In this document: piece after piece, positions 456 to 3,192 of the stretch
How the letters are laid out: every line of letters starts with the position of its first letter
Position numbering within the stretch: position 1 is the stretch's first letter
Assembly (NCBI GenBank): GCA_001797815.1
Contig: MGQK01000004.1
Location: forward strand, 1 to 7,478
Direction: 5' to 3'
Source: Deltaproteobacteria bacterium RBG_13_61_14
GTDB taxonomy: Bacteria; RBG-13-61-14
DNA: 7,478 nucleotides
Made by a program: the position numbers and the translations under genes
Notes under the pieces: model-generated
What the model was told of the DNA's origin: nothing
The model's input: the letters and a program-made list of their open reading frames with translations, nothing else
The model's database searches: none

Positions 456-501
456 CGCGGGTGAGGCTTCGGCCGTGAGCTCAGCCGAACGGTCACCCGC
501 G
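456..501 (+). other. Imperfect hairpin in the rplN-rplX spacer
   Basis: Bases 456-464 (CGCGGGTGA) pair perfectly with 493-501 (TCACCCGCG). After a 3x3 internal loop, 468-473 (TTCGGC) pair with 484-489 (GCCGAA). The apical loop (474-483) contains the self-complementary octamer TGAGCTCA. The outer stem ends 6 bases before the rplX Shine-Dalgarno sequence (507-512). There is no U-run after it, so it does not look like an intrinsic terminator. Possible roles are a protein-binding site for operon autoregulation, an RNA-processing site, or a stabilising structure. The base pairing is seen; the role is unproven. Confidence 0.6.
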
Positions 502-520: not shown

Positions 521-847
521 GTGGCGGGCAAGGCGAAAATCCGCAAGGACGACCTGGTCGCGGTGACCATCGGCAAGGAGCGGGGCAAGACCGGCAAGGT
601 GCTCCGGGTGTATCCCGACAAGGGCCGGGCCATTGTGGAAAAGCTGAATTTCCAGAAGCGGCACGTGCGCAAAGGGCATCCCATGGCCCAGCAAGGGGGC
701 GTGATCGAGCGGGAGGCGCCGATCCCCTTGACCAACCTGCGGCTGATTTGCCCCAAGTGCCAGGAGAAGATGCGGCCGCGGTTCCAGGCTCTGGAAAGCG
801 GGACCCGGGTGCGGGTCTGCCGTAAGTGCGGGGAGCAGATCGGATGA
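521..847 (+). CDS. rplX: 50S ribosomal protein L24 (uL24), zinc-ribbon form
   Basis: L24 is one of the first proteins to bind 23S rRNA; it nucleates 50S assembly and lies near the exit of the peptide tunnel. With the GTG start at 521 it has 108 residues. The KOW region is near residues 5-35, with [26 protein letters not shown]. The basic [10 protein letters not shown] stretch follows (43-52), and [14 protein letters not shown] (62-75) is the family signature of the C-terminal half. The C-terminus adds a four-cysteine ribbon, CPKC (77-80) and CRKC (100-103), which should bind zinc; many bacterial L24 proteins have it and E. coli lacks it. The stop (845-847) overlaps the rplE start as ATGA, implying translational coupling to L5. 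Confidence 0.96.
830..835 (+). promoter_or_regulatory. Ribosome binding site that supports the long form of L5
   Basis: GGGGAG at 830-835 lies 8 bases before ATG 844, which overlaps the rplX stop codon. The alternative internal ATG at 1033, which would give an L5 of ordinary length, follows a C-rich stretch without a purine-rich Shine-Dalgarno sequence at the right distance. This supports translation of the N-terminal extension. Confidence 0.75.
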
Positions 848-1566
848 GCGACGAGAGCAAAGAGAAAACCCAAGAGAAAACCCAGGAACCGGGGATCGAG
901 CCCGCCCCGGCTAAAGATAAGGGCAAAGGCAAGGAGCAGGCCCGGGACAAGGCCAAAGCCAAGGGCAAGGAGGGGGCCGGAGCCAAAGAGAAGGCTAAGG
1001 AGTTGCCCAAGGTCAAGCCGGGCCCTTCCCGGATGAAGAAGTTTTATCACGAGCAGTGCCTGCCGGCGCTGATCAAGGAGTTCAATTACAAGAACCCGAT
1101 GCAGGTGCCGCGGTTCTCTAAGATCACGGTCAACATGGGCGTGGGCGAGGCCAGCCAGAACATCAAGCTCCTGGACCAGGCGGCGGAAGAGGTGAAGGCG
1201 ATCTGCGGGCAGAAGCCGGTGATCACCCGGGCGCGGCGCTCGATCGCCGGGTTCAAGCTGCGGGCCGGGGCGCCGATCGGGTGCATGGTCACCCTGCGGG
1301 GGGACCGCATGTATGATTTCTTCGACCGCCTGGTCAATGTGGCGCTGCCCCGGGTCCGCGACTTCCGGGGGATCTCGCCCCATTCCTTTGACGGCCGGGG
1401 GAATTTTTCCATGGGGATCCGGGAGCAGATCATTTTTCCGGAGATCGTTTACGACAAGATGGAGCGCATCCAGGGCATGAATATCACGGTCAATACCACG
1501 GCGCGGACCGACGAGGAAGCCCGGGCTCTCTTGAAGCTGATGGGCATGCCGTTCCGGGAGAACTAG
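844..1566 (+). CDS. rplE: 50S ribosomal protein L5 (uL5) with a long Lys-rich N-terminal extension
   Basis: L5 binds 5S rRNA in the central protuberance, contacts P-site tRNA and makes the B1b bridge with S13. The 240 residues compare with about 180 for the family. The L5 core starts near residue 61 ([20 protein letters not shown]) and is complete: [20 protein letters not shown] (84-103), [19 protein letters not shown] (122-140), [11 protein letters not shown] (143-153), the RDFRGISP...[11 protein letters not shown] block (172-191) and the C-terminal [19 protein letters not shown]. Residues 1-60 are extra and low in complexity: 16 Lys, 9 Glu, 3 Asp, 1 Arg, 8 Ala and no aromatic residue, so probably disordered. 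ATG 844 overlaps the rplX stop and has a well-placed GGGGAG. An internal ATG (1033) would give a normal-length protein but has no clear ribosome binding site. The core identity is certain; use of the whole extension is likely. Confidence 0.95.
860..883 (+). repeat. Exact 12-bp tandem duplication inside the rplE extension
   Basis: AAGAGAAAACCC occurs twice back to back (860-871 and 872-883) without mismatch. It is in frame and adds four codons, giving [10 protein letters not shown] at residues 6-15 of L5. This looks like recent replication slippage in a tolerant, disordered segment. Confidence 0.9.
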
Positions 1567-3133: not shown

Positions 3134-3159
3134 GTGCCACCGGATTAAATCCGGTGCAC
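3134..3159 (+). repeat. Palindromic repeat / hairpin in the rplR-rpsE spacer
   Basis: CACCGGATT (3138-3146) and AATCCGGTG (3148-3156) are exact inverse complements around a single A. With C3138 bulged, the RNA stem extends outward: GTGC (3134-3137) pairs with GCAC (3156-3159) and ACCGGAT (3139-3145) with ATCCGGT (3149-3155), leaving loop TAA. That gives 11 base pairs. The strong symmetry on either strand, the small size and the local drop in GC resemble REP-like or similar dispersed intergenic repeats. There is no U-run for a terminator. Membership of a repeat family cannot be shown from one copy. Confidence 0.65.
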
Positions 3160-3162
3160 CGC

Positions 3163-3174: not shown

Positions 3175-3192
3175 CACTGTGCACTGTGCACT
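3175..3192 (+). repeat. Heptamer tandem repeat CACTGTG
   Basis: CACTGTG at 3175-3181 and again at 3182-3188 is followed by the first four bases of a third copy (CACT, 3189-3192). The unit produces two GTGCAC palindromes (3179-3184 and 3186-3191). It lies 7 bases before the rpsE ribosome binding site and is non-coding. Short heptamer tandem repeats are known as dispersed intergenic elements in several bacterial groups; kinship with those is an inference. Confidence 0.75.

Follow-up and report, generated by a model that had tools for sequence, protein, structure and literature searches.

We analyzed a 7,478-nucleotide stretch of DNA (the window) from the uncultured Deltaproteobacteria bacterium RBG_13_61_14, which the order of its open frames (L14, L24, L5, S14, S8, L6, L18, S5, L30, L15, secY, adk, map and infA) identifies as the latter half of the ribosomal S10-spc operon; L14, L24, L5 and S14 were checked against Pfam, and the remaining genes were named by inspection. 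The L5 gene (rplE) occupies the spc operon position expected of uL5, between L24 and S14. Upstream of it, the GTG521 of rplX is preceded by an AAGGAG Shine-Dalgarno (SD) sequence, and the rplX stop codon (TGA, 845-847) overlaps the ATG844 of rplE as ATGA. From this ATG, the frame continues for 240 codons (240 aa) to a TAG at 1564-1566, and its product carries both uL5 Pfam domains above cut-off, Ribosomal_L5 (PF00281) at residues 84-140 with 92.5 bits and L5_C (PF00673) at residues 144-237 with 145.6 bits (Table 1). A first-pass annotation had described an ATG844 with GGGGAG 8 bases upstream and an unbroken frame into a complete L5 core; sequence and Pfam agree, confirming the observation of an N-terminally extended L5 in an uncultured bacterium.

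Table 1 Features of the window around rplE and in neighboring intergenic gaps
Feature	Position	Strand	Details
Inverted repeat	456..501		between L14 and L24
rplX (uL24)	521..847	+	likely start GTG521; Pfam ribosomal_L24 and KOW
Shine-Dalgarno-like GGGGAG	830..835	+	8 bases before ATG844; duplex energy -6.4 kcal/mol
uL5 N-terminal extension	844..1032	+	63 residues, low-complexity K/E/A/G, predicted disordered
Tandem repeat	860..884	+	12-nt unit AAGAGAAAACCC x2.1, inside extension
Imperfect repeat pair	916..975	+	two 30-nt copies, 70% identity, inside extension
uL5 core and stop codon	1033..1566	+	177 aa; Pfam PF00281 and PF00673
REP-like palindrome	3134..3160		L18-S5 gap; palindrome core 3138-3156
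CACTGTG tandem repeat	3175..3192		L18-S5 gap; 2.6 copies

Intergenic gaps of the window hold elements of their own. The L18-S5 gap contains a REP-like perfect palindrome, CACCGGATT-A-AATCCGGTG, with the CACTGTG repeat just downstream of it. This palindrome has 14 genome sites within 2 mismatches, compared with none for a reversed-pattern control, and four of its copies share GTGC-CACCGGAT...ATCCGGTG with unrelated flanks. The inverted repeat between L14 and L24 is 18 nt long and 83% complementary, and the 86-nt stretch there folds at -33.6 kcal/mol (z of only -1.64 vs. shuffles), with no Rfam match there or elsewhere in the window.

The absence of stop codons from the extension is by itself weak evidence of translation, since 35% of Markov resamplings of its 189 bases remain open and long antisense frames in the window are also open, for hundreds of codons. 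What makes the frame at 844-1032 convincing is the ATGA overlap, the anti-SD duplex energy at ATG844 (-6.4 kcal/mol, with the window genes ranging from 0 to -10), the GC content by codon position (0.62/0.44/0.78, the pattern of the neighboring genes with a somewhat lower GC3), and the distance from the L24 stop to the L5 core, which is 185 nt in the window vs. about 20 nt in two same-order genomes. We infer that the 63-residue tail is probably translated from ATG844.

Composition and recurrence of the uL5 tail

The first 63 residues of L5 comprise K16, E9, D3, A8, G7, P6 and R2, with F, W and Y absent, and carry a net charge of +6. The residue counts given earlier (16 Lys, 9 Glu, 3 Asp, 8 Ala and zero aromatics) were exact on recount, and the extension is repeat-containing as claimed, with real but short repeats that fit growth of the tail DNA by slippage or duplication. 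A search of the rest of the genome for paralogous tails returned weak low-complexity matches only (E 0.2 or worse). In an AlphaFold2 model built on a 39-row alignment, residues 1-60 lack secondary structure, with a pLDDT between 49 and 60 for each block of ten residues, and the normal uL5 fold begins at helix 63-80. The tail is probably intrinsically disordered, the low pLDDT being consistent with, and not proof of, disorder. Composition, the AlphaFold2 model and many analogous cases thus bear out the disordered, mixed-charge and net-basic nature of the arm as first described, while its reach over 5S rRNA, 23S helices or the tRNA path and any part in assembly are putative.

Lysine-rich tails also occur on other ribosomal proteins of this genome. 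On the same contig as the window, bL17 (L171:3048-3515) ends in a K/A-rich C-terminal tail of about 35-40 residues, and bL25 (L188:1198-2019, contig C116), a CTC-type protein of 273 aa, bears a long EKGEKGEK.../PAKAEK repeat tail at its C-terminus, so the tail habit is not confined to uL5. A coupled remodeling of the central protuberance together with bL25 was considered and rejected, as bL25 frames are also long in sister genomes that have no uL5 tail.

Comparison across genomes revealed tails of this kind in distant lineages. Three genomes of the window's phylum were compared, and the uL5 tail is absent from the other two (G001 and G002), which share the window's order but not its family and are the only two same-order genomes examined. 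Among the relatives compared, of the same order at the closest, none was seen with this region out of frame or broken by stops. Among the loci read, 30 of the 96 rows in a tree set, mostly from Myxococcota, extend uL5 by 30 residues or more and have a start signal downstream of the L24 stop; this proportion is not a frequency in bacteria, as the set was chosen by similarity and interest. Outside Myxococcota, where such tails are common, extended uL5 is scattered over phyla, e.g., Armatimonadota L103 and G014, G011 and G015. It also occurs in G054, G009, G032 and G031. Looking for the extension in related genomes, as the first-pass annotation had suggested, showed absence from the two same-order genomes and tails of similar composition in Myxococcota and other phyla. 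These recurrent K/A/E-rich extensions span 31-88 aa, with a uniform make-up over 33 extensions (K 24%, A 17%, E 11%, G 10%, P 8%) and net charges from 0 to +12; the window tail, with 63 extra residues against a threshold of at least 30, its K/A/E-rich make-up, its own SD and its net +6, is of the same type. In a Myxococcota-centered search, the alignment began at query residue 34 or earlier in every matching genome of family f30, and uL5 is of the ordinary short form in the loci read from families f62 and f67. The charged N-terminal tail of uL5 is, then, real but not extraordinary, belonging to a recurrent kind that is seemingly little described for uL5, and literature searches for a bacterial uL5 N-terminal extension found no paper.

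Similarity to these Myxococcota proteins has its bounds. Many Myxococcota uL5 (e.g., L096 from Archangium sp., L132 and L139) share with the window a K/A/E-rich, net-basic N-terminal extension, often starting MAEEK or MADDK; these tails are alignable within a family, whereas the window tail is not detectably homologous to them, and they often carry a proximal clade motif (GFAANIEEGLEV, LGYELAPEG or ATISAAPGKA) before the core that the window tail lacks. Across the L132-L161 Myxococcota loci, such clade-specific motifs, which include hydrophobic or aromatic residues, lie just before the core, and might serve as a docking element.

Other uL5 variants differ in position or context. The uL5 of Cutibacterium acnes also has a lineage-specific, flexible extension, of 31 aa, but at the C-terminus rather than the N-terminus; it is disordered in the 70S map, and local refinement was needed to trace it, between H84 and H38, the A-site finger (PMC10085706). 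Among experimental cases this is the closest parallel. Long N-terminal additions like that of the window are present in mitochondrial and chloroplast uL5 chains in the PDB (e.g., 6ywe and 5mmi, with the core match starting at residue 187 of 352 or 55 of 258), although these organellar additions may include targeting peptides or mitoribosome-specific parts. The best 60 of 85 PDB sequence matches included no bacterial uL5 with a comparable N-terminal tail.

Possible roles of the tail

uL5 binds 5S rRNA in the central protuberance, close to the P site. In our best explanation, which as a whole we hold with moderate confidence, the 63-residue N-terminal tail of the uL5 encoded by rplE would be genuine, its translation starting at ATG844 and coupled to that of rplX; this tail would be a disordered, net-basic (+6) polyampholyte gained in the window's lineage, and short tandem duplications of Lys/Glu codons probably helped it to grow. 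From its attachment at the N-terminal helix of uL5, the tail would most likely serve to hold on weakly, by electrostatic attraction, to rRNA around the 5S rRNA and central protuberance, during or after assembly, a role perhaps filled independently in many lineages. This explanation builds on observed anatomy, sequence, distribution and absence of detectable tail homology, and on predicted disorder. A flexible net-basic tail of this sort might contact rRNA weakly, assist the docking of the 5S RNP, or have no important effect.

The last of these options is a serious if less probable contender, in which the tail is translated and merely tolerated, a near-neutral, slippage-grown addition at an exposed terminus that has no specific role. 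It would account for the short tandem repeats in the tail DNA, the lack of residue conservation with other tails, the lysine-rich tails of bL17 and bL25, and the fact that both same-order genomes do without a tail, which also speaks against a functional one. Against it, many lineages show the same net-basic K/A/E make-up, and Myxococcota families have kept it (extension z-scores of 8-15); this retention suggests selection there, with no direct transfer of that conclusion to the window. More doubtful is the far-reaching proposal that N-terminal polyampholyte arms of uL5 are an adaptation of bacterial central protuberances that arose convergently and has so far gone undescribed, guiding 5S RNP docking or modulating the region of the P site and A-site finger, of which this rare phylum would have evolved one independently.

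Origin of the tail and start of rplE

We consider it very improbable that the tail was inherited from Myxococcota or acquired with an L5 gene from them. The highest L5 core identities are indeed to tailed Myxococcota (L060 at 74% and L132 at 72%), which hinted at horizontal transfer, but neither the trees nor the tail comparison supported it. The L5 core tree, in which many branches are weak, does not place the window inside Myxococcota and needs at least 12 changes of extension state, and a grouping of the window with the two same-order genomes (L003/L006), as expected under vertical descent, is not rejected (AU p = 0.33). A tree of five other ribosomal proteins, from flanking genes, unites the window with these two, G001 and G002, outside Myxococcota (SH-aLRT 100). 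Compared with 31 other tails against self-shuffles, the window tail gave z from -1.5 to 2.3, and thus little or no similarity beyond composition (vs. z 8-15 for tails within a Myxococcota family), although low-complexity sequence can lose similarity quickly. Given this grouping with tail-less relatives outside Myxococcota, independent gain in the window's lineage would be the simplest reading, with tail loss in G001 and G002 a possible alternative.

Equally slight is the probability that the start is misannotated and L5 begins at ATG1033, with 844-1032 as a leader region: such a start would leave a 177-aa core, which is an ordinary length, but it would place L5 185 nt after the L24 stop, disregard the overlap of ATG844 with that stop and the coding-like GC pattern across the extension, and rely on a duplex energy of -2.5 kcal/mol vs. 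-6.4 at ATG844. The weak SD is suggestive rather than decisive, because L30 and secY are weak as well and infA scored zero. Tail-less homologues usually begin at positions matching G60/P61 of the window, 3-4 residues ahead of the core, and most have Leu in place of the window's Met64. ATG1033 is thus probably not an internal start either, and the dual initiation first thought conceivable is poorly supported, as this ATG lacks an SD-like sequence and lies three codons downstream of the homologous start, at a site without homology to the starts of other uL5 genes.

For the window itself the consequence is mainly one of annotation, ATG844 being the start to keep. More broadly, the textbook bacterial uL5 of 180 residues is not universal, and gain or loss of the charged N-terminal tail has happened on many occasions.
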